The notes under the pieces: model-generated | What the model was told of the DNA's origin: nothing | Seen by the model: the letters and a program-made list of their open reading frames with translations, nothing else | Database searches by the model: none | Translations under genes and position numbers: made by a program | DNA from: Fervidobacterium changbaicum | Lineage (GTDB): Bacteria; Thermotogota; Thermotogae; Thermotogales; Fervidobacteriaceae | Assembly (NCBI RefSeq): GCF_004117075.1 | Contig: NZ_CP026721.1 | Coordinates: 2,108,001 to 2,172,000 of the forward strand | DNA: 64,000 bases | Direction of reading: 5' to 3' | Part shown: one piece after another, positions 10,678 to 31,931 of the stretch | Layout of the letters: each line of letters begins with the position of its first letter | Position numbering within the stretch: the stretch's first letter is position 1

Positions 10678-11520
10678 ATGAGCAGAGGTAAACTGCTTCA
10701 AATAAAAAGAAAAATCAACGCAACACAGTCACTCCAAAAGATAACAAAAGCCATGGAAATGGTCTCAACTGCCCGCATTAAGAAGGTCGAAAAAAGACTT
10801 CAGATGGCACGGGAGTTCCTCAATGAGACTAAAAAAATAGCCGCGCGTGTCCATTTTGAAGTCAAACATCCGTTCGTGACGGGAAACGGCAAAAAGGTCC
10901 TTATTGTCATAGGGACCGATATGGGATTGTGCGGTTCATTCCCAACTGAGATTGCAAAAAGGGCGATTTCACTCGATAAGAAGGAAAATTTCGATCAACT
11001 GTACATCGTCGGAGCAAAGATTGCGCCTGTTTTTAGAAATAATCCGAAAGTTGTTCGAATATACGAGCACGTATATGAAACACCAACCTTTGATTTCACT
11101 AAAACATTGGTTAACGACTTGCTAGCAAACGGCGCTGGAAAGGTAAAGGTCATATACGGAAGGTTTAAAAATAAATTAGCTCAGGTTCCAGACGTGTACG
11201 ATTTGACACCTATACAGGTAGAAACAAGTTCAGTATCAGGATCAACTGAAAAAGGCGACAGGTACGAATTCGAGCCATCTGAAGAAAGTTTCCAAAACGC
11301 ACTTGTTGAATTTTACGCTTCAAGTGTTTTGTATTCTTTAGCTTTTGAGACGAAAATTAGTGAGCTCTACGCACGCCAGAATGCTATGCGGAATGCTACC
11401 GAAAACGCCGAAGAAGTGGTCAGAATATTGACCATTGAATATAATAAGGCACGTCAAGCTTCAATTACTCAAGAGCTAATAGAAATAGTAACCGGTGCTG
11501 ATGCATTGAAGGAAGAGTAA
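10678..11520 (+). CDS. atpG: F-type ATP synthase subunit gamma
   Basis: A 280-residue rotor shaft. The N-terminal helix (KRKINATQSLQKITKAMEMV) and the C-terminal helix (ASSVLYSLAFETKISELYARQNAMRNATENAEE) form the coiled coil turning inside the alpha/beta hexamer. The central Rossmann-like part contains IGTDMGLCGSFPTEI. It follows atpA by six bases. Confidence 0.95.
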   Translation: MSRGKLLQIKRKINATQSLQKITKAMEMVSTARIKKVEKRLQMAREFLNETKKIAARVHFEVKHPFVTGNGKKVLIVIGTDMGLCGSFPTEIAKRAISLDKKENFDQLYIVGAKIAPVFRNNPKVVRIYEHVYETPTFDFTKTLVNDLLANGAGKVKVIYGRFKNKLAQVPDVYDLTPIQVETSSVSGSTEKGDRYEFEPSEESFQNALVEFYASSVLYSLAFETKISELYARQNAMRNATENAEEVVRILTIEYNKARQASITQELIEIVTGADALKEE

Positions 11521-21599: not shown

Positions 21600-21653
21600 A
21601 AATTGCATAGATCGTTTTTCGAAGAGCCTTACAGATGGAAGGGAGATGAAGAC

Positions 21654-22538
21654 ATGGGTGAACTAAAAAAAGAGAAAACAACGGATATACTTAAAACCAA
21701 CAAAGACCAGGTTGTCCAGCTTTCGATATTGGTTGAAGTAGCGCATCCTGTGGTTCGCATGCCTGTTGTCGATGGTGATGGTAATTCGTTCTACTTTCCG
21801 GGAGTTGGAGGCATTACTTACAACTTCGGGCTTGGTGATAACGCTTTCAAAATGCACGGTGATCACATCGAACCTGATGTTAGCACAAAGAACAAAGACA
21901 AAGATTTGAATCCCACATGCATGGCTCTTGCATGCATAGGAAATGAAGCAACGGTAGTATCCGGAGATGCAAAAGGCATGAAAGGCTACGTGATTGGAAA
22001 ACATGGAGGTATAGATCACATTCTTATTTGGTTCCCTGAAAAGGAAAAGTTAGCAATTGGTGATAAGATACAGATAAAAGCGTGGGGGCAGGGTTTGGAA
22101 CTTCTTGATTATCCAGAAGTGAAGGTTATGAACATAGACCCATGCCTGTTTGAAAAAATTCCAATAAAGCTCAAGAAAGGAAAACTCCACGTGCCAGTTA
22201 CCGCTGTAGTTCCTGCGCATTTGACAGGCTCTGGTATAGGGGCAGGTAATCCTGCAGCAACCGACTACGATATGAATACGCTCGATAAGGAGGAAATAAA
22301 AAAGTATGGTCTTGACAAAGTGCGTATCGGGGATTTAGTTGCTATATCAGACCACTATAATGGCTATGGAGCTGGAGGCTACAAAGGCGGAGCACTTTCG
22401 ATAGGTGTCGTAGTCCATTCAGATTGTTTTAAGACCGGTCATGGACCAGGTATGGTGATAATAATGACTTCCAAAGAAGGGAAAATTGTTCCCGTTATTG
22501 ACGAAAATAGTAATATAAAAAATTACCTTGAGATTTGA
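21654..22538 (+). CDS. DUF4438 family protein
   Basis: A 294-residue protein that I recognise as the DUF4438 (TM1086-like) family from its whole-length pattern: HPVVRMPVVDGDGNSFYFPGVGG, MHGDHIEPDVS, CIGNEATVVSGDAKGMKGYVIGKHGG, DIMN-type KVMNIDP, TAVVPAHLTGSGIGAG and DHYNGYGAGGYKGGALSIGVVVHSD. Function is unknown; histidine- and aspartate-rich conserved loops suggest a metal or nucleotide site. ATG 21654 has AAGGGAG upstream. A terminator follows 32 bases after the stop. Confidence 0.8.
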   Translation: MGELKKEKTTDILKTNKDQVVQLSILVEVAHPVVRMPVVDGDGNSFYFPGVGGITYNFGLGDNAFKMHGDHIEPDVSTKNKDKDLNPTCMALACIGNEATVVSGDAKGMKGYVIGKHGGIDHILIWFPEKEKLAIGDKIQIKAWGQGLELLDYPEVKVMNIDPCLFEKIPIKLKKGKLHVPVTAVVPAHLTGSGIGAGNPAATDYDMNTLDKEEIKKYGLDKVRIGDLVAISDHYNGYGAGGYKGGALSIGVVVHSDCFKTGHGPGMVIIMTSKEGKIVPVIDENSNIKNYLEI

Positions 22539-22730: not shown

Positions 22731-22780
22731 TATAATGTGAAAGGTGATTCACATGAAATATGACATATGATTCACCTTTC
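22731..22780 (+). promoter_or_regulatory. Promoter -10 and long inverted repeat, probable TetR-type operator
   Basis: TATAAT at 22731-22736 is followed directly by an inverted repeat: 22739-22755 and 22764-22780, 17-base arms matching at 15 positions, with an 8-base spacer. Each arm also contains a near-palindrome (GTGATTCAC and TGATTCACC). The repeat covers the expected transcription start, where a bound repressor would block initiation. The -35 is poor (TCGTTC, 17 bases from the -10). The double-TetR regulator encoded second in the cluster is the obvious candidate ligand. Confidence 0.65.
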
Positions 22781-22831
22781 AACGAAGTATTTGTTAGAAT
22801 ACATTTTTATTTAAGAATAGGAGGTTTGGTT

Positions 22832-23815
22832 ATGAAGTACGCTAAGATCATTTCTTCAGGCATGTACGTTCCGCAGAAAGTCATGACGAATGCTGAGTTC
22901 GAAAAGCTTACGATGTTCACTATCGATCCGTATTTTTCTGATGTGATTGGTATCAACCACAGACATGTTTCTGAAGATTGGGAAACACCTACATATATGG
23001 CAGCGGAAGCTGCAAAAAAAGCACTTGCACGAGTCGGTATGAAGCCTGAGGAAGTTGACCTAATAATCGTTGGTACAGATACTCCGGAATCTGTATCCCC
23101 ACCGGATGCACCGAGAGTGCAGTATCTCATAGGCGCACACAAGGCAGAACCTCTCGCATTCAACGTGAATGCTTCGTGTGCGAATGGAGCACTAATGCTC
23201 GACATCGCTGCGAGATACATCGCTATGGGGGATTACAAAAACGTCCTTGTAATAGGCACGTACGCAATGACGAAATTCTTAAGTTGGAAATATTCTTGGG
23301 AAGCGCTTTTCAGCGATGGTGCAGGTGCACTTTTACTTACGTCATCTGATGAACCAGGATACATAGGTAGTGTGGCACGTGCTGATGGCAGCTGGTGGCA
23401 GAATTGGGGAATTTATATGGGTGCTGGTACAATGAATTTGGCAGGTTTCGAAAGAGGCCTCCACAAATTAGACCTTAGGGCAGCATATCCGTCGACGGTT
23501 AACGAAGAAGGCTGGCCGATGCTGATTAATAGGCTCATGGAGAAATACAGTATCACGAAGGACGAGATAGGCATGATTTTCTTCACGCAGGTGAGAAAGA
23601 AGACGATAGAGAAGGTTATGGAGATATTGGGCTTACCTGTTGAAAGAGCGCACATGATTATGCACAAATACGGCTACACGGGCTCTGCGTGTGTATACAT
23701 GGCTTACGACGACGCTTTCGATGAAGGGAAAATCGAGGAGTTGAAAGGAAAAGTGGTCATTTTCTTAACATCCGGTGTGGGATATCAACAAGTTGCTACC
23801 GCTTTCAGAATGTAG
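22832..23815 (+). CDS. KASIII-like (FabH/HMG-CoA synthase superfamily) enzyme with altered catalytic triad
   Basis: A 327-residue thiolase-fold condensing enzyme. The nucleophile cysteine is clear (NVNASCANGALML, C116), as are GTDTPESVSPPDAPRVQ, LFSDGAGALLL and the C-terminal TSGVGYQQVATAFRM. Where FabH has HQAN, this reads TQVR (252-255); where FabH has GNTSA, it reads GYTGSA (281-286) preceded by H278. The Cys-His-Asn triad is thus not conserved, so ordinary fatty acid initiation is doubtful; acyl transfer or a ketone-forming reaction on CoA thioesters is possible. ATG 22832 follows TAGGAGG. It heads a cluster with TetR, CoA-transferase and Liv-type transporter genes. Confidence 0.75.
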   Translation: MKYAKIISSGMYVPQKVMTNAEFEKLTMFTIDPYFSDVIGINHRHVSEDWETPTYMAAEAAKKALARVGMKPEEVDLIIVGTDTPESVSPPDAPRVQYLIGAHKAEPLAFNVNASCANGALMLDIAARYIAMGDYKNVLVIGTYAMTKFLSWKYSWEALFSDGAGALLLTSSDEPGYIGSVARADGSWWQNWGIYMGAGTMNLAGFERGLHKLDLRAAYPSTVNEEGWPMLINRLMEKYSITKDEIGMIFFTQVRKKTIEKVMEILGLPVERAHMIMHKYGYTGSACVYMAYDDAFDEGKIEELKGKVVIFLTSGVGYQQVATAFRM

Positions 23816-23894: not shown

Positions 23895-25130
23895 TTGAAA
23901 AAAGACGTTTTGAAAGATGAACAATTATCTAATGGTTCAAAAAAGATGAAACGAATACCTCAGCGCGTAGATGGAATTGAATCAAAAGGCAAGCTTAAAA
24001 TGGCTGCTATTAAGCTTTTTAGTGAAAACAATTTTGCTGATGTGTCCATTTCTCAGATCGCTAAACATGCTGGTCTAAGCACCGCCGCTTTTTATCAATA
24101 CTACATTAATAAAGACGAATTGTTCAGAGAAATTGTTGATGAATTGATGGAAAATCTCAAAACAACGCTAAATGGTGATTCTATAACGGAAGTTGCTTTG
24201 AAATACTTCGAATTTTGTAGGTTAAACAAAGATTTAATTCAAGCGATTCACCTTAACGAGTACCATTTTGAATGGCTACGAAACGAGTTCGAAGAGCTCA
24301 TATACTCTGTTTCAGAAAAGTATGGGCTAACGGATGTTGGGCAGTTCTATTTCTGGTCACCTATAAGGTTTGTAGTGAACTTTGGCGATCTTTTGAACGT
24401 TGAAGTAGAGCCGAAAGCCTTTATCTCACTTATCATGAACGGTCTTCAAAGAAAAGAAAAAGGTTCCCGAAAACTTCCTAAGGAAATATTTGAATTCAAA
24501 CCAGAAAAGCACGTTCTAGAAATTGACGAAAAGCGAGAACTAATACTTGCGAATTCAGAAACGCTCTTTGGCACTTATGGTTACCAAAAAACACAGATAT
24601 ACGACATCGCAAGGTCATCTGGAATTGCAGTTGGAACTATTTATCTGTACTTTGAGAACAAAAAGGAAATCTTACGTGAACTGGTTCGATGGATAAACAA
24701 GGGATTAAGGTACAACGTCAGAAAGGCGCTGGAAAATGTTAAGAATTACCCAAGGTTGATTCAGGAAATTGCTGGATTGTATGCTTTTGTTCAGTTTTTC
24801 AAAAGCCATGCGAGTATGTACAAAATCGTGAGAGAAAGTCAATCGCTTGACTTGGAGATCGCAAAAGAATACTACTCTTCAATCTTTCAATCCTACTGCA
24901 AAGCCCTGAAAACTGCAATTCAAGATGGTCAACTGGACTTGGACATGGAACACCTTGATAATGTAGATTCCGAACGTATTCTAAGTTACATCGCCATGAT
25001 TTTCATGGGAATCGGTCACTACTTGGGCGAAAGATATGTTCTTGCTGGTAAGGTTACAGATACAAAAAAATTGGAACATTTCTTAGAGGAGATCTTTGTT
25101 TACCTGTCGGAAGGGCTGGGGGTGAAGTAG
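23895..25130 (+). CDS. Tandem double-TetR transcriptional regulator
   Basis: About 411 residues containing two complete TetR units in one chain. HTH 1 (about residues 31-80) is KMAAIKLFSENNFADVSIS..QIAKHAGLSTAAFYQYY. HTH 2 (about 213-262) is ILANSETLFGTYGYQKTQI..YDIARSSGIAVGTIYLYF. Each is followed by ~130 residues of helices as in a TetR ligand domain. TetR proteins normally are ~200-residue dimers. TTG 23895 lies seven bases after GGAGGG; ATG 23853 and GTG 23880 are alternatives. It presumably binds the inverted repeat at 22739-22780 and senses an acyl-CoA or the transported compound. Confidence 0.85.
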   Translation: MKKDVLKDEQLSNGSKKMKRIPQRVDGIESKGKLKMAAIKLFSENNFADVSISQIAKHAGLSTAAFYQYYINKDELFREIVDELMENLKTTLNGDSITEVALKYFEFCRLNKDLIQAIHLNEYHFEWLRNEFEELIYSVSEKYGLTDVGQFYFWSPIRFVVNFGDLLNVEVEPKAFISLIMNGLQRKEKGSRKLPKEIFEFKPEKHVLEIDEKRELILANSETLFGTYGYQKTQIYDIARSSGIAVGTIYLYFENKKEILRELVRWINKGLRYNVRKALENVKNYPRLIQEIAGLYAFVQFFKSHASMYKIVRESQSLDLEIAKEYYSSIFQSYCKALKTAIQDGQLDLDMEHLDNVDSERILSYIAMIFMGIGHYLGERYVLAGKVTDTKKLEHFLEEIFVYLSEGLGVK

Positions 25131-25131
25131 C

Positions 25132-26415
25132 GTGGATTTCAAAGATGAATATCAAAAAAGACTCACAAATATCGAAAACGTACTCTCAATCCTACAGGAC
25201 AATTGGACAATAGTTGTCGGAATGACTCCTATGGAACCTAAGGTTTTTCTCAGAAACCTTCATCGAACGCAAGCGAGCGGATTGGAAGTTTTCACGTGTT
25301 TGAACACAGAACCTTATGAATTTTGTTCAAAAGAAGAATATTCCAATAGATTCTACAACTATTCTTGGTTTTTTGGACCCTTCAATCGAAAGCTTTCGAA
25401 GAACACATACTACGTTCCAAATAACCTGCACCAAGCTGGAGTGAATTTGATACAGTCCACAAAAGTCAACGTTTTCGTTGGTGTAGCGTCTCCCATGGAT
25501 GAGAAAGGTTTCTTCACGCTGTCGGCGAGCGTTGTTTACGAAAAGGATGTGCTTGAGAATGCTGATATAGTTATCCTCGAAGTGAATCCCAACGCGCCGA
25601 GAACACATGGTGATACACATGTTCACATCTCTGAAGTTGATTACATAATCGAAGTAGACTATCCTTTGCCACAAGCCGAACTTCTTGAACCAGCTGAAGT
25701 AGAGGAGAAAATAGCACAGCATATTGTTGAACTAATAGAAAATGGCTCCACTATCCAGCTTGGTATTGGAGGAATTCCAAACGCCGTTGCAAAATTTCTG
25801 GTTGAGAAAAGAGATTTGGGCATCCACACGGAAATGTTCACCGAAAGCATGATAGATCTCTTTGAAGCTGGTGCCATAACGAATAAAAGAAAGACGCTTT
25901 GGAACGGGAAATTTGTCTGTACGTTTGCTTACGGCAGTGAGAGAATGTATAAATTCATCGATGATAACCCAGCTGTATTGTTTTTAAGAGGACGCTACGT
26001 GAATGATCCATTCGTAATCGCACAAAATGAAAAGATGGTTAGTATAAACACTGCACTTATGGTTGATTTAACTGGAAACGTATGTTCGGAAGCGATAGGA
26101 ACCAGTCATTACAGTGGTACTGGAGGTCAGCTTGATACTCACAGGGGAGCTGTAAAGAGCAAAGATGGAAAAGGCATCATTGCGATAAGGTCAACTGCAA
26201 AAGACGGACAAATTTCAACGATAGTACCACTGCTCCCTCAAGGTTCGCCGGTAACAGTCCCACGGCAAGAACTTGATTATGTTGTAACAGAGTGGGGTGC
26301 TGTGCGACTTAGAGGACTACCAACGCGTAAACGTGCACTTGCACTGATATCGGTGGCCCATCCGGATTTTCGCGATTATTTAACCAAAGAAGCCCAAAAA
26401 CTAGGATTAATCTGA
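25132..26415 (+). CDS. Acetyl-CoA hydrolase/transferase family CoA-transferase
   Basis: A 427-residue family I CoA-transferase, closest in motif to 4-hydroxybutyrate/acetate CoA-transferases. It has QLGIGGIPNAVAKFL, HTEMFTESMIDL with the catalytic glutamate (E234), SEAIGTSHYSGTGGQLD, and the C-terminal VVTEWGAVRLRGLPTRKRALALI. It would move CoA between acetyl-CoA and a carboxylic acid. GTG 25132 starts right after the TetR stop with GGGGGTGA upstream, so the two genes are co-transcribed. The acceptor acid is probably the compound imported by the following transporter (inference). Confidence 0.85.
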   Translation: MDFKDEYQKRLTNIENVLSILQDNWTIVVGMTPMEPKVFLRNLHRTQASGLEVFTCLNTEPYEFCSKEEYSNRFYNYSWFFGPFNRKLSKNTYYVPNNLHQAGVNLIQSTKVNVFVGVASPMDEKGFFTLSASVVYEKDVLENADIVILEVNPNAPRTHGDTHVHISEVDYIIEVDYPLPQAELLEPAEVEEKIAQHIVELIENGSTIQLGIGGIPNAVAKFLVEKRDLGIHTEMFTESMIDLFEAGAITNKRKTLWNGKFVCTFAYGSERMYKFIDDNPAVLFLRGRYVNDPFVIAQNEKMVSINTALMVDLTGNVCSEAIGTSHYSGTGGQLDTHRGAVKSKDGKGIIAIRSTAKDGQISTIVPLLPQGSPVTVPRQELDYVVTEWGAVRLRGLPTRKRALALISVAHPDFRDYLTKEAQKLGLI

Positions 26416-26454
26416 TTTTAAGCTTTTCCTATTCCATCAGAGGAGGTGTGTCAT

Positions 26455-27615
26455 ATGAAAAAGTTTCTAAGTGTTATTCTTATGCTTGTATTTTTGGTAA
26501 GCTTGTTTGCGGAAGTTGGGGTTTACGATGACAAAGTAGTCATTGGAACTTTCCAAGCACTGTCCGGTCCATATGCGATTATTGGCCAAGAGATGAGCAA
26601 AGGTATGAAGGCATATTTCAACTGGATTAACAGCAGAGGCGGAGTTTACGGAAGAAAGATAGAGCTCATAATTGCTGACGACCAACTCAACCCGGCAAAA
26701 ACTGTTGTTGAAGTCAAGAGGTTAGTTGAACAAGACAAAGTCTTTGCAATAGTTGGTGGACTTGGAACGTACGGTTGTTTAGCGGTTATGGATTACCTTG
26801 AGCAGAACAAAGTTCCATTCGTGTACCAAGGTGCAGGTACATCAAAACTTGTTATCCCACCGAAAAAGTACATCTTCGGAGTCCAACCAGACTATACACT
26901 TGAAGGAACACTGATTGCCAAGTACGTCGGAGAGATTGCAAAATTCAAGAACCCGGGGATTATTTACATGAACAACGATATTGGTTTGGAAGGATACGCA
27001 GCGTTCAAGGCTAAGCTGGAAGACTACAAGATGAAGCCAATTGTAGAAATTTCTTACAATCCAGCAGATACGGATTACAGCGGGCTTGTTGTAAAACTTC
27101 TTGAAAAGAACCCAGATGTGATAGTTATTTACGGATTAATTACAGATACAATCCGCTGGATAAAGACCATTCGTGACTACGGTCTCAACAGCAAGATAAT
27201 TACGATATATCCGAACGCAGACCCATCATTTATAACACTTGCTGGAAAGTACGCTGAAGGTATCATCTTCACTGGTTGGGTACCACTTGCAACACCAGAC
27301 AGACCAGAATTTGTAAGAGACTATCAAAGGGCAATTTCCATTTACCAACAGACGTACCCAAAAGAAGTTATGTCGTCCTACGCAGTTGCAGGTTTCATTG
27401 CCGCTGAAGTTTTCACGGAAGGTTTGGTCAGGGCAGGAAAGAACCTAACAAGAGAAGGGCTTGTAAAAGCACTTGAAAGCTTCAAGAACTGGAACGGTAT
27501 ACTTGCCAAAGATATCACGTGGGGTCCGAATATCAGACGCGGTAAGACGTCCATGTACTTCATGGTTGTGAAAAATGGACAGTTTGTACCTCTTACTGAT
27601 TTAATCAGGCCGTGA
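26455..27615 (+). CDS. Branched-chain-amino-acid-type ABC transporter substrate-binding protein (LivK-like)
   Basis: A 386-residue periplasmic binding protein. The signal peptide is MKKFLSVILMLVFLVSLFA. The mature part begins with VVIGTFQALSGPYAIIGQEM and continues NWINSRGGVYGRKIELIIADDQ, typical of the Peripla_BP_6 family, with later YNPADTDYSGLVVKL and VMSSYAVAGFIAAEVF. Ligands in this family range over amino acids, amides, urea and aromatic acids, so leucine should not be assumed. The ribosome binding site AGAGGAGGTG is very strong. A long stem-loop follows before the ATPase genes. Confidence 0.9.
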   Translation: MKKFLSVILMLVFLVSLFAEVGVYDDKVVIGTFQALSGPYAIIGQEMSKGMKAYFNWINSRGGVYGRKIELIIADDQLNPAKTVVEVKRLVEQDKVFAIVGGLGTYGCLAVMDYLEQNKVPFVYQGAGTSKLVIPPKKYIFGVQPDYTLEGTLIAKYVGEIAKFKNPGIIYMNNDIGLEGYAAFKAKLEDYKMKPIVEISYNPADTDYSGLVVKLLEKNPDVIVIYGLITDTIRWIKTIRDYGLNSKIITIYPNADPSFITLAGKYAEGIIFTGWVPLATPDRPEFVRDYQRAISIYQQTYPKEVMSSYAVAGFIAAEVFTEGLVRAGKNLTREGLVKALESFKNWNGILAKDITWGPNIRRGKTSMYFMVVKNGQFVPLTDLIRP

Positions 27616-27807: not shown

Positions 27808-28569
27808 ATGCTAAAACTTGAGAATATAAGTGTAAGGTTTTCGGGTCTTGTTGCTGTTGACAACCTTACTATGGAGGTTAAAGATAAAACGATACATTCG
27901 TTAATAGGTCCTAACGGAGCGGGAAAAACAACGGTTTTTAATGCTATATCCGGCTTAGTAAAACACGATGGTAGAGTCCTTCTTGACGGCAAGGATATCA
28001 CACACTTACCAGTGCACAAAAGAGTCTATCATGGTCTTGGAAGAAGCTTCCAAAATATCATTATCTTCAAGTACATGACCGTGTTGCAGAACTTGATGCT
28101 CGGTTATCATTCGAAACTTCAATACAATCATTTCGATGAAATTGTCTACACAAATAGATTTACTTTAGAGGAACGTAAAGCGAGATTGAGAGCCATAGAA
28201 GTTGCCGATTTGCTTGGTATTAAGACCATATTGGGAGTTTACGCTGGAACGCTTCCTTATGGTTTTCAAAAACTTATTGATGTAGGAAGAGCACTTATGA
28301 CGGAGCCAAAAATACTCCTTCTCGACGAACCTGCTGCGGGTTTAACGGAGAAGGAATCAGATATCCTTAAAGAGAAAATCATTAGGATAAGAGACAACGG
28401 CATTACGGTATTTCTCATTGAGCACGATATGAGAATGGTCCTTGATATATCAGACAGAATAACCGTGATCAACTTCGGCAAAAAGATCGCAGAGGGAACA
28501 ACACAGGATGTGGTAAATAACGAGGAAGTTATTAAAGCGTACTTGGGAACAGCTGTAACAGTTCAATGA
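27808..28569 (+). CDS. ABC transporter ATP-binding protein, LivG type
   Basis: A 253-residue ATPase. Walker A is GPNGAGKTTVFNAISGL. The signature region is the LivG-style TLPYGFQKLIDVGRALM, Walker B is ILLLDEPAAGL, and the H-loop is FLIEHDMRMV. The C-terminal IAEGTTQDVVNNEEVIKAYLG is characteristic of LivG. ATG 27808 has AGGAGTTGAG upstream. It energises the permeases LivH and LivM-hydrolase encoded downstream. Confidence 0.92.
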   Translation: MLKLENISVRFSGLVAVDNLTMEVKDKTIHSLIGPNGAGKTTVFNAISGLVKHDGRVLLDGKDITHLPVHKRVYHGLGRSFQNIIIFKYMTVLQNLMLGYHSKLQYNHFDEIVYTNRFTLEERKARLRAIEVADLLGIKTILGVYAGTLPYGFQKLIDVGRALMTEPKILLLDEPAAGLTEKESDILKEKIIRIRDNGITVFLIEHDMRMVLDISDRITVINFGKKIAEGTTQDVVNNEEVIKAYLGTAVTVQ

Positions 28570-28606
28570 TCACATCCAGTTGCATTAGCATAGTGAGGTG
28601 AAATTG

Positions 28607-29344
28607 ATGGAGAATGAAAAACTTGGTGAGCATTTAGATGTGAAAGATATCCTCGTTAAAAGCCTTAATGTATGGTATGGACCAGTGCATGCAGTTAAGG
28701 GTGTTGAACTTAGCATTCCAGCTGGAAGTATCACAGCGATCCTCGGAGCAAATGGAGCAGGCAAGAGTTCAACGTTGAAGGCGTTTGCGGGAAGTGTGAA
28801 ATACTCAGGGACAATAATTGTCGGTGATGAGTCTATCGATAGACTGCCCGTGCATGAAAGGGTAAGAAAAGGTCTTGTTCTCTGTCCAGAAGGCAGAGGG
28901 ATATTTTACCATATGACGGTAAAAGAAAATCTTCTGGCCGGTGCTTACACAAATAAAAAAGCGAACCTCGATTTCGTTTTTGGCATATTCCCATTTTTGA
29001 AGGAACGGCTCAATCAAATTGCCGGTACTTTGTCTGGTGGGGAGCAGCAGATGCTGGCAATAGCACGTGCACTGATGGCAGCCCCAAAGTATCTAATGTT
29101 AGATGAACCTTCTCTAGGCCTTGCGCCTATCGTTGTTCAGAGAATCACGGACGTCATAAAATACATAAACGAGAATTTAAAGATCACCGTAATATTGGTG
29201 GAGCAGAATACTTCTGTGGCTCTGAGTATCGCTCACCATGGTTATGTTTTAGAAAATGGAAAAGTTGCACTCCAGGGAAGAGCCGAGGAGCTCAGAGACA
29301 ATCCTGTCGTGCGTGAGAAATATCTTGGGGGTGTTAAAAAGTGA
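28607..29344 (+). CDS. ABC transporter ATP-binding protein, LivF type
   Basis: A 245-residue ATPase. It has Walker A GANGAGKSSTLKAFAG, LCPEGRGIFYHMTVKENLLAGA, signature LSGGEQQMLAIARALM, Walker B YLMLDEPSLGLAP and VEQNTSVALSIAHHGYVLENG, all LivF hallmarks. ATG 28607 has GTGAGGTG upstream. The stop overlaps the GTG start of the permease gene (GTGA), so translation is coupled. It pairs with the LivG-type ATPase. Confidence 0.92.
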   Translation: MENEKLGEHLDVKDILVKSLNVWYGPVHAVKGVELSIPAGSITAILGANGAGKSSTLKAFAGSVKYSGTIIVGDESIDRLPVHERVRKGLVLCPEGRGIFYHMTVKENLLAGAYTNKKANLDFVFGIFPFLKERLNQIAGTLSGGEQQMLAIARALMAAPKYLMLDEPSLGLAPIVVQRITDVIKYINENLKITVILVEQNTSVALSIAHHGYVLENGKVALQGRAEELRDNPVVREKYLGGVKK

Positions 29345-30219
29345 TAAACCAAATCCTTCTTGGACTTTCAACAGGTGCCATTTACTCTCTTGTTGCTATA
29401 GGGCTCGTCATGATGTACAAAGTGAGCGGTGTGATGAACTTTGCGTATGGAAATATGGGGATGTTTGTAACTTATGTAATCTGGTGGTTGAGTTCTTCCG
29501 CGGGTTTGAATTTGTATTTCTCAATAGCTATAGGGATAATTTTCGCGGCGATTATGGGTATCGCTGTTGAACGCTATGGTCTGCGCCCTATAAGACATCT
29601 TTCGCATGCTTCAATGCTAATCGTCACATTCGGAATTTTGATGATTTTAGAAGGTCTCGCAGTTGAAATTTGGGGAACCCAATACAAGGCATTCCCTGAA
29701 ATCGTTACGGGTACACCGTTTGTTATCCGCGGAGATTTCGGTATTGTGGTTATTCGTAGGCAGGATATTCTTGTATTCTCAATACTTGCCATCATTTCCC
29801 TTTTGTTAGCTCTATTCACGAAATTCACAAAATTTGGGATTGCTGTGCGTGCAGTTTCTGAAAATGAGGAAGTCGCCGGTTACATGGGAATAAATGTTGG
29901 ATCTGTGCTTGCATTTTCATGGGCTTTTGGAACAGCCATGGCGGCGATTGTTGGTGTGATTTCTGCACCAAAAGTGTTTGTTTCGCCTACAATGCTTACA
30001 TTTTATCAAATACAAGGCTTCACCGCCGCTGTCTTAGGAGGATTTGAAACTTTCACAGGAGCTGTTCTTGGTGGCTTGTTGCTTGGTGTCTTAGAGAAAA
30101 TTGTAGGTAACTACATCTCCGAAGGTTTTAAGGCTTCCTTCTCACTTGTCATAATCGTTTTGGTATTAATTTTCTTCCCGAACGGGCTGTTTGGAAGAAG
30201 ATTAAGGAGGCGAGCTTGA
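29341..30219 (+). CDS. ABC transporter permease, LivH type
   Basis: A 292-residue inner-membrane permease with about eight helices. LLGLSTGAIYSLVAIGLVMMYKVSGVMNFAYG is the LivH start, and GIAVRAVSENEEVAGYMGINV is the cytoplasmic EAA-like loop that contacts the ATPase. The GTG start overlaps the livF stop, and its own stop overlaps the ATG of the next permease. Complete, with the usual length. Confidence 0.92.
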   Translation: MINQILLGLSTGAIYSLVAIGLVMMYKVSGVMNFAYGNMGMFVTYVIWWLSSSAGLNLYFSIAIGIIFAAIMGIAVERYGLRPIRHLSHASMLIVTFGILMILEGLAVEIWGTQYKAFPEIVTGTPFVIRGDFGIVVIRRQDILVFSILAIISLLLALFTKFTKFGIAVRAVSENEEVAGYMGINVGSVLAFSWAFGTAMAAIVGVISAPKVFVSPTMLTFYQIQGFTAAVLGGFETFTGAVLGGLLLGVLEKIVGNYISEGFKASFSLVIIVLVLIFFPNGLFGRRLRRRA

Positions 30220-31931
30220 TGCTGTGGACTTGGCTGTTACTTGCACTACTGCCTTTCTTGCTTTTGAAGAGCGCGTTTATGATAACTATACTTAGCCTTG
30301 TTGGGATTTACGCACTCGCCGCCTTAGGTTTGAATTTGATAATGGGCTATTCAGGTCAGATTTCAATAGGGCATGCCGCTTTTATGAGCATAGGTGCATA
30401 TACCTCAACGCTACTGGTAATGAATTTTAATGTCCCTCTTGTCTTTGCGATGTTAATCGGTGGTTTAATTGCATTTGCCTTCGGCATTTTGATAGGTTTT
30501 CCTGCATTAAGGCTATCCGGATTTTACCTAGCCATTGCAACTATGGGATTTGTCGTAGCTATTGAGCAGATTTTTGGATACTTCGAACATATAACCGGCG
30601 GACATGCAGGTATAAGGAATATCCCGTTTCCACATTTGTGGAATTCTGATGTGGAAAAGTACCTCCTCGTGCTTTCTGTGCTCTTTGTGAGCTATGTCAT
30701 CTCTGAGAGGTTGATAAATTCGAGAACCGGTAGGGCTTGGATGGCAATAAGAGAGAACGAAACAGCTGCTGCAGTCATGGGAGTAAACAACGCATGGTTC
30801 AAAGTACTTGCTTTTGCGGTAGGTTCCATGTTCGCAGGACTTGCCGGCGCACTTTATGCGCATGTTATAGGTTACATAGCACCAAGCGATTTTGGAATTG
30901 CCAAGTCACTCGATCTATTGGCAGTCTCGGTCATTGGTGGAATGGCATCCGTTGATGGACCATTTTACGGAGCACTTATTTACGTTGCTATGCCATTTCT
31001 ATTCAGCAGATCCAATGTCCCACTTTCTATAATCTTCGGCGCTCTTTTGATCTTTGTTGTCCTCTTCATGCCGTTAGGAATTAGCTACTACATTAGAATG
31101 TTCAGAATGAACTATCTCAACGCACTACTTGTGCATTTAAAGAAATCCAGAAGGCCGTATGGAATGCTTGTTCAAACTCCAGCTGGACGGATTCACTACA
31201 TAAAGTACGGAAATGGGAATATTCCTATCGTGTTGGTTCACGGGAACTTCGCTTCAGCAAGATTTTTTGAACCACTTATAAAGAAAATTCCTCAAGAGAA
31301 ATACACAGTCTACGCGCTTGACTTGCCAAATTTCGGTTTCTCAGACGAACTCCCAGGAGATGTTAGCATTGAGAAATACGTTGATGCGCTAGAAAAATTT
31401 GTAGAAACTCTCGGGATAAGGAATTTCATTTTACTTGGTCACTCGCTTGGCGGTGCAGTTGCTATGGGCTACGCTGTGAGAAACCCCAAGAATCTGATTA
31501 AATTGATTTTAGTTGACCCAGCACCCGTCTTCGGTATGCCGCGATACGATGAATCAGCCTACAAAATTATAGATGTCTACAGGAAAAATCCGGAGCTGAT
31601 TAAACGAGCCTTAATGATGAACGCTCCAACTTACGATGATGAAAAATTCTTCGAAAGAATAACAGCAGATGCTCTTAGAATGGCAAAGAAAGCCTTTATA
31701 GGCAACGCAAAGGCACTGGCTGAATACAACTATTCTGACAAAGCCAAGAACGTTGAGATTCCTGTTGTTGTCATCTACGGCGACAAGGACGTGATACTTG
31801 ATTACATAAGTATGCAGAAAACCGCAGCGGCTTTCCCAAATGGTAAGTTAATAGTGCTAAAAGACATTGGGCACAGTCCTGCTATTGAATCACCGGAAGA
31901 GGTAATAAGACATTTTTCTGCCCGAGTTTAA
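30219..31931 (+). CDS. LivM-type ABC permease fused to a C-terminal alpha/beta hydrolase
   Basis: A continuous 570-residue frame. Residues 1-~295 are a LivM permease (LAALGLNLIMGYSGQISIGHAAF, GRAWMAIRENETAAAVMGVN, LAVSVIGGMASVDGPFYGA). After a short basic linker, residues ~310-570 are a complete alpha/beta hydrolase: oxyanion region VLVHGNFASARFF, nucleophile elbow GHSLGGA (S409), acid YGDKD (D524) and base DIGHSPAIESPEEV (H552). LivM C-termini face the cytoplasm, so the hydrolase should sit at the exit of the channel. The ATG follows AAGGAGG and overlaps the livH stop. I know no standard family with this fusion. Confidence 0.88.
   Translation: MLWTWLLLALLPFLLLKSAFMITILSLVGIYALAALGLNLIMGYSGQISIGHAAFMSIGAYTSTLLVMNFNVPLVFAMLIGGLIAFAFGILIGFPALRLSGFYLAIATMGFVVAIEQIFGYFEHITGGHAGIRNIPFPHLWNSDVEKYLLVLSVLFVSYVISERLINSRTGRAWMAIRENETAAAVMGVNNAWFKVLAFAVGSMFAGLAGALYAHVIGYIAPSDFGIAKSLDLLAVSVIGGMASVDGPFYGALIYVAMPFLFSRSNVPLSIIFGALLIFVVLFMPLGISYYIRMFRMNYLNALLVHLKKSRRPYGMLVQTPAGRIHYIKYGNGNIPIVLVHGNFASARFFEPLIKKIPQEKYTVYALDLPNFGFSDELPGDVSIEKYVDALEKFVETLGIRNFILLGHSLGGAVAMGYAVRNPKNLIKLILVDPAPVFGMPRYDESAYKIIDVYRKNPELIKRALMMNAPTYDDEKFFERITADALRMAKKAFIGNAKALAEYNYSDKAKNVEIPVVVIYGDKDVILDYISMQKTAAAFPNGKLIVLKDIGHSPAIESPEEVIRHFSARV

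Follow-up and report, generated by a model that had tools for sequence, protein, structure and literature searches.

A family of single-chain double-TetR regulators in Thermotogota with a predicted asymmetric operator

A stretch of 64,000 nucleotides from the genome of Fervidobacterium changbaicum (contig NZ_CP026721.1, positions 2,108,001 to 2,172,000), referred to here as the window, contains an open reading frame that raises the question of whether two TetR units can reside in one polypeptide and, if so, what DNA and what ligand such a protein would recognize. The frame, which we call dTetR (double TetR regulator; 23895-25130, + strand), encodes 411 residues from a TTG start codon with GGAGGG 7 nt on its 5' side. 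The initial annotation described it as two HTH units in a single chain, and the Pfam TetR_N profile (PF00440, gathering cutoff 24 bits) bears this out: the full protein scores 93.4 bits over two stretches, and when each half is searched in isolation, residues 1-202 score 50.2 bits with a match at residues 37-80 (24003-24134, + strand) and residues 203-411 score 46.8 bits with a match at residues 217-263 (24543-24683, + strand), such that the N-terminal TetR_N HTH that marks the TetR family is present twice. AlphaFold models and TetR fold matches show an all-helical ligand/dimerisation domain after each HTH. The recognition helices lie at about residues 63-69 in the N half, based on helix H63-69 of the AlphaFold model, and at about residues 246-252 in the C half, based on conservation, with G247 and T248 invariant in 35 of 35 family proteins. 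The two halves had also been described as different in sequence, and profile-profile alignment (hhalign) relates them at 13% identity with a probability of 99.8%, by which measure they are homologous but far diverged.

A double protein could in principle arise from an assembly artefact, a hazard that the initial annotation had itself raised, or from an in-frame pseudogene fusion of two adjoining tetR genes. We find no point in its support, and the source genome is complete at 2.27 Mb. A dTetR profile at 1e-15 matches 76 of 103 Thermotogota genomes, and with five of these left out for having single TetR genes only, the double protein is encoded as a single ORF in 71 of the 103, a few of these being contig-edge fragments. 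It is also encoded in 20 of 54 genomes of a second phylum, that of the Caldisericota metagenome-assembled genome, and each of the eight congeners, like the two members of the sister genus, has the double ORF at 52-76% identity. The profile search found no dTetR in two of the genera among the 103 Thermotogota genomes (g3 and g13), which are probably Thermosipho and Thermotoga. Single-ORF orthologues in two phyla rule out an artefact, the probability of which we regard as vanishingly small.

Regulators of the TetR type usually act as two identical chains. Do the two unlike units of dTetR fold together? AlphaFold, run on alignments of dTetR family proteins, predicts the dTetR monomer as one confident globule forming an intramolecular pseudo-dimer (pLDDT 89.1, pTM 0.88), and gives pLDDT 93.1 and pTM 0.90 for a member only 33% identical to it; the high full-chain pTM implies that the position of one half relative to the other is predicted with confidence. 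The proposal of a covalent TetR 'dimer' thus gains support from two distant members, and for both of them the best whole-chain match in the PDB (Foldseek) is Mce3R of Mycobacterium tuberculosis (9b7y), although superposition of the single-chain models over both halves is loose, with TM about 0.6 and rmsd 7-8. Mce3R also has about 400 residues with two unlike TetR units per chain, and cryo-EM and mutation have shown its single-chain fold on an asymmetric operator (PMC11667970). Because Mce3R is a solved natural double TetR, dTetR is not without precedent and is a protein of the same kind, with 14-16% identity over the fold alignment. Both are associated with genes for lipid metabolism and transport, and autoregulation and an asymmetric operator in more than one copy, established for Mce3R, are predicted for dTetR. 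They differ in that Mce3R has a 25-bp operator at two sites 53 bp apart, whereas the predicted dTetR unit is 14 bp, has palindromic outer arms, and frequently recurs after 23 or 25 bp; and Mce3R contains a single, shared hydrophobic cavity and has no known ligand, whereas the dTetR C half retains a predicted CoA site of the type seen in FadR_Sa, described below.

Engineered single-chain Tet repressors (PMC1797012; also Krueger 2003, as cited there) provide a second likeness: two TetR units are joined there in tandem and pair within the chain instead of with a second one, as predicted for dTetR, but these proteins are man-made and have a flexible linker, whereas dTetR is natural and diverged. 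In the literature and structures searched, Mce3R is the sole natural double TetR for which a structure has been solved, and we found no description of the dTetR family, its operator, its regulon or a division of labour between its halves. The searched passages on GplR1, an 'unusual TetR' of M. abscessus, do not mention a double unit, and the phrase 'double TetR' in PMC6561031 refers to fluorescent foci.

The gene context of dTetR suggests what it might control. It is the second gene of an operon, all on the + strand, that begins with a KAS III-like ketoacyl synthase (22832-23815, with the start codon placed from sequence; Pfam ACP_syn_III and ACP_syn_III_C) and continues beyond dTetR with an acetyl-CoA hydrolase/CoA-transferase family gene (25132-26415), a LivJ-like substrate-binding protein in conserved linkage (26446-27615), and, named by sequence and context, LivG-like (27808-28569) and LivF-like (28598-29344) ABC ATPases and a LivH-like permease (29341-30219), ending with a LivM-like permease fused to an alpha/beta hydrolase (30216-31931; BPD_transp_2 at residues 22-281, Abhydrolase_1 at 337-560). 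This last protein of 571 residues is an in-frame fusion kept in most of the Thermotogota operons examined, and its two parts are separate ORFs at one locus, L122. We note that a gene for a DUF4438 protein (21624-22538) lies just 5' of the operon and keeps this position in nearly all Fervidobacterium relatives.

The operon linkage is retained in most Thermotogota examined and in Caldisericota, and in other families a thiolase that passes the TIGR01930 cutoff (acetyl-CoA C-acyltransferase) and an SDR resembling 3-oxoacyl/acetoacetyl-CoA reductases lie within the same operon as dTetR. The CoA-transferase is confined to genomes with dTetR (66 of 66): across the 103 Thermotogota genomes both are present in 66, dTetR alone in five, the CoA-transferase alone in none and neither in 32 (Fisher P = 1e-21), counts that depend on the profile thresholds used, notably for the five genomes with dTetR alone. 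Three congeners (G005-G007) have the CoA-transferase elsewhere than in the operon. The gene set reads as one for uptake of a small acid, its activation with CoA and thiolytic cleavage to acetyl-CoA, and 3-hydroxybutyrate or acetoacetate is a plausible substrate because the hydrolase part weakly matches short-chain polyhydroxyalkanoate depolymerase, at a sub-cutoff 130 bits (cutoff 300).

What DNA might dTetR bind? The operon promoter has a TATAAT -10 box (22731-22736, + strand), directly followed in the aligned relatives by a 14-bp unit that is the probable operator, TGAAAGG|TGATTCA, in which the outer arms are palindromic and the core is not. In the window, predicted unit 1, TGAAAGGTGATTCA (22738-22751, + strand), has the half-sites TGAAAGG and, on the other strand, TGAATCA, and predicted unit 2, TGACATATGATTCA (22761-22774, + strand), is a direct repeat at 23 bp with an identical right half and a degenerate left half. 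All 11 aligned promoters of relatives have TATAAT, one base and then TGAAAGGTGATTCA or a near copy (TGAGAGG... in G005 and G007), and 10 of the 11 have a second copy in direct orientation exactly 23 bp on; the congener G003 has a single copy at its operon.

This tandem 23-bp pattern, allowing up to three mismatches, matches 19 times in 18 of the 103 genomes, spanning the family of Fervidobacterium and three others. All 18 encode dTetR and 18 of the 19 matches adjoin the dTetR operon, while no match occurs in those of the 103 genomes that are without dTetR and reversed-pattern controls give none across the 103. The exception, G073:C167:31453-31489, is a tandem operator pair off the dTetR contig and a possible further target promoter. 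In family f9 two operator copies lie 25 bp apart. With a weight matrix built from the family of Fervidobacterium (21 sites) and a threshold of 17 bits, 12 of 24 distant operon loci score a site, as against 4% of shuffled loci, and 149 kb of unrelated real loci yield none. No site in the other 12 distant loci, comprising much of f10 and several of f2, f3 and f5, reaches this threshold; since half of the distant loci thus lack a strong site, either the HTHs or their sites would have drifted or the motif is not universal. A search for plasmids with the operon promoter DNA gave no match.

The initial annotation pointed to an inverted repeat at 22739-22780 as the DNA to assay. It is present in the window, formed by unit 1 (22738-22751, + strand) and a near copy in reverse orientation, TGAAAGGTGAATCA (22768-22781, - strand). 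The inverted arm gives weaker matches, recognizable mainly in the closest relatives, and the conserved arrangement is the direct repeat with a period of 23, so the inverted repeat is ruled out as the conserved form of the operator. Other arrangements are also seen. A Caldisericota locus (L006) has around position 201 a perfect palindrome, TGATAGGTGATTCACCTATCA, composed of two overlapping operator units, along with two further single units, and in f10 genomes the motif lies where an alpha/beta hydrolase gene that faces dTetR begins (L130 near 10939-10952 and L131 near 10992-11005, - strand).

A genome-wide scan by pattern search extends the predicted regulon. Matches with two mismatches are mostly near chance (38, versus 28 in a reversed control), and the exact sequence TGANAGNTGATTCA occurs three times in the 2.27-Mb genome: in the operon promoter, inside an ORF, and in the promoter of a thiolase-SDR operon outside the window (G000:C1:1991537-1993650; L059 and L190) that was located by the motif alone. 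Other lineages encode this thiolase inside the dTetR operon. The motif lies 5' of the thiolase in 11 of 11 relatives with dTetR, with ten sites scoring at least 22.3 bits and a weak one of 15.6 bits in G001, and in none of six family members without dTetR (P = 8e-5), whose thiolases are 65-80% identical to that of F. changbaicum. Two genomes with a more distant dTetR (G018 and G019) have no site at the thiolase, and in G019 the thiolase lies within the operon, directly after the CoA-transferase. Because the thiolase promoters carry one asymmetric unit each, a single unit is likely a functional operator, and the thiolase-SDR operon is predicted to be an unlinked second member of the dTetR regulon.

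Might the motif belong to another regulator, with dTetR merely encoded in the same operon? The link between the two is drawn from sequence, and the distant loci without a strong site would fit such a reading, but the motif comes and goes with dTetR even at the unlinked thiolase promoter, and it recurs across families whose dTetR proteins are about 30% identical; we consider a different regulator very improbable, and retain dTetR as the protein that would read the motif.

The suggestion that the two halves could read two different half-sites is strengthened by the form of the unit. Across 22 promoter units the outer three of the seven symmetric pairs are kept in 22, 21 and 22 and the fourth in 16, while at the inner three the symmetry is broken in all but one of 66 cells, and the right half, TGATTCA, is invariant in 22 of 22 promoter units and in 21 of 21 matrix sites. 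Symmetrised variants of the predicted 14-bp operator are TGAAAGGCCTTTCA and TGAATCATGATTCA. Two unlike heads have reason to keep such an asymmetric site and a homodimer has none, and it is this asymmetric motif that tracks the presence of dTetR across genomes. Alternatively, two chains could come together through equivalent units (N with N', C with C'), each unit forming a classical homodimer and the whole a particle with four HTHs on the long inverted repeat at 22738-22781, as the near-perfect repeat in the window and the overlap of the L006 sites as a perfect palindrome would allow. We think this unlikely given that only the closest relatives have the inverted arm while the direct repeat is conserved, that thiolase promoters carry a single asymmetric unit, and that AlphaFold confidently puts the two halves together in one chain. 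We favor one chain per asymmetric unit, and guess that the C half reads the invariant TGATTCA side.

As for the ligand, the best PDB sequence match to the C half (profile search, 7.9e-44) and its closest relative is FadR_Sa of Sulfolobus acidocaldarius (PDB 6el2, 6en8; PMC6449355), with 29-30% identity and TM 0.85-0.89. FadR_Sa represses a gene cluster for acyl-CoA catabolism, as dTetR may also do, and is a homodimer of about 200-residue chains on a 16-bp dyad, whereas in dTetR the C half has an unlike N half as its covalent partner. In FadR_Sa, Arg73 and Arg86 make contact with CoA, and alanine substitutions at these positions impair the response to ligand (PMC6449355); the equivalents R272 (24708-24710, + strand) and R287 (24753-24755, + strand) are each arginine in 34 of 35 family proteins, and the DNA-contacting Gly48 and Tyr51 align with the invariant G247 and Y250 of dTetR, so that both CoA and DNA contacts are conserved. 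Residue equivalences between the halves, taken from the hhalign alignment, place K89 of the window protein at the R272 position, which is acidic in 17 of 35 and mostly acidic or variable, and the CoA-contact arginines are not kept in the N half among the 35 family proteins. With R272 and R287 kept there and an N half devoid of CoA arginines, the C half is likely an acyl-CoA sensor. FadR_Sa responds to long-chain acyl-CoA and not to acetyl-CoA (PMC6449355), a preference at odds with the short chains that the regulon suggests.

These arginines argue against the earlier suggestion that the two halves sense two ligands. Two independent sensors, each with its own ligand and together integrating two signals, would accord with halves only 13% identical by profile alignment and with the conservation of some ligand-domain residues in the N half, but the CoA-binding arginines are missing from that half, no named TetR_C family in Pfam matches its ligand domain, and its longer branches are what one would expect once a half no longer has to bind ligand. 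Dual sensing is in our estimation improbable, and we favor sensing through the C half.

The branch lengths come from a tree of the halves and single TetRs, in which the C halves, including a few contig-edge fragments of the family, form one clade (support 98/90) with FadR_Sa as its sister (88/82), and the N halves, with longer branches, lie outside it at weakly supported deep forks (41/35). The longer N-half branches are in line with a lost constraint. Recent internal duplication is disfavored by the grouping of the C halves next to FadR_Sa with the N halves elsewhere, and a fusion of two different TetR genes is likely, and no more than likely because the deep forks are weak. We tentatively propose, at somewhat short of an even chance, that the fusion is as old as the phylum and arose independently of that in Mce3R, with labour split such that one half kept the ligand site and the other became a pure DNA-reading partner, both acting on the asymmetric operator. 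If this were so, the pair would be locked onto an operator that no homodimer would prefer.

The initial annotation was right in its main idea of a single-chain double TetR, and its interpretation is supported in part. Our best reading is that dTetR represses both its own synthesis and the genes for uptake and thiolytic catabolism of short-chain acids, with an acyl-CoA acting as inducer through its C half; we infer that it binds the motif, represses from it and takes an acyl-CoA as its ligand. The two unlike units would fold together into one pseudo-dimer per polypeptide, presenting two different HTHs to the asymmetric 14-bp site, and because the operator lies directly 3' of the -10 box, bound dTetR would obstruct RNA polymerase at the promoter of its own operon and at that of the thiolase-SDR operon. 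Acyl-CoA made by the CoA-transferase or in later steps would bind between the C-half helices, as in FadR_Sa, and release dTetR from DNA, with the N half acting as a DNA-reading partner without a CoA site. As a whole, this reading of a single-chain double-TetR repressor with an asymmetric 14-bp operator, a two-operon regulon and acyl-CoA release via the C half is one that we hold to be probable.

To the precedent of Mce3R, dTetR adds a whole double-TetR family across two phyla, along with predictions of a short operator, a regulon of two promoters and a ligand class. These predictions would be cheap to test, and the protein is likely to be thermostable. The protein may also represent a natural case of how joining unlike DNA-reading heads allows a regulator to move from palindromic to asymmetric operators.
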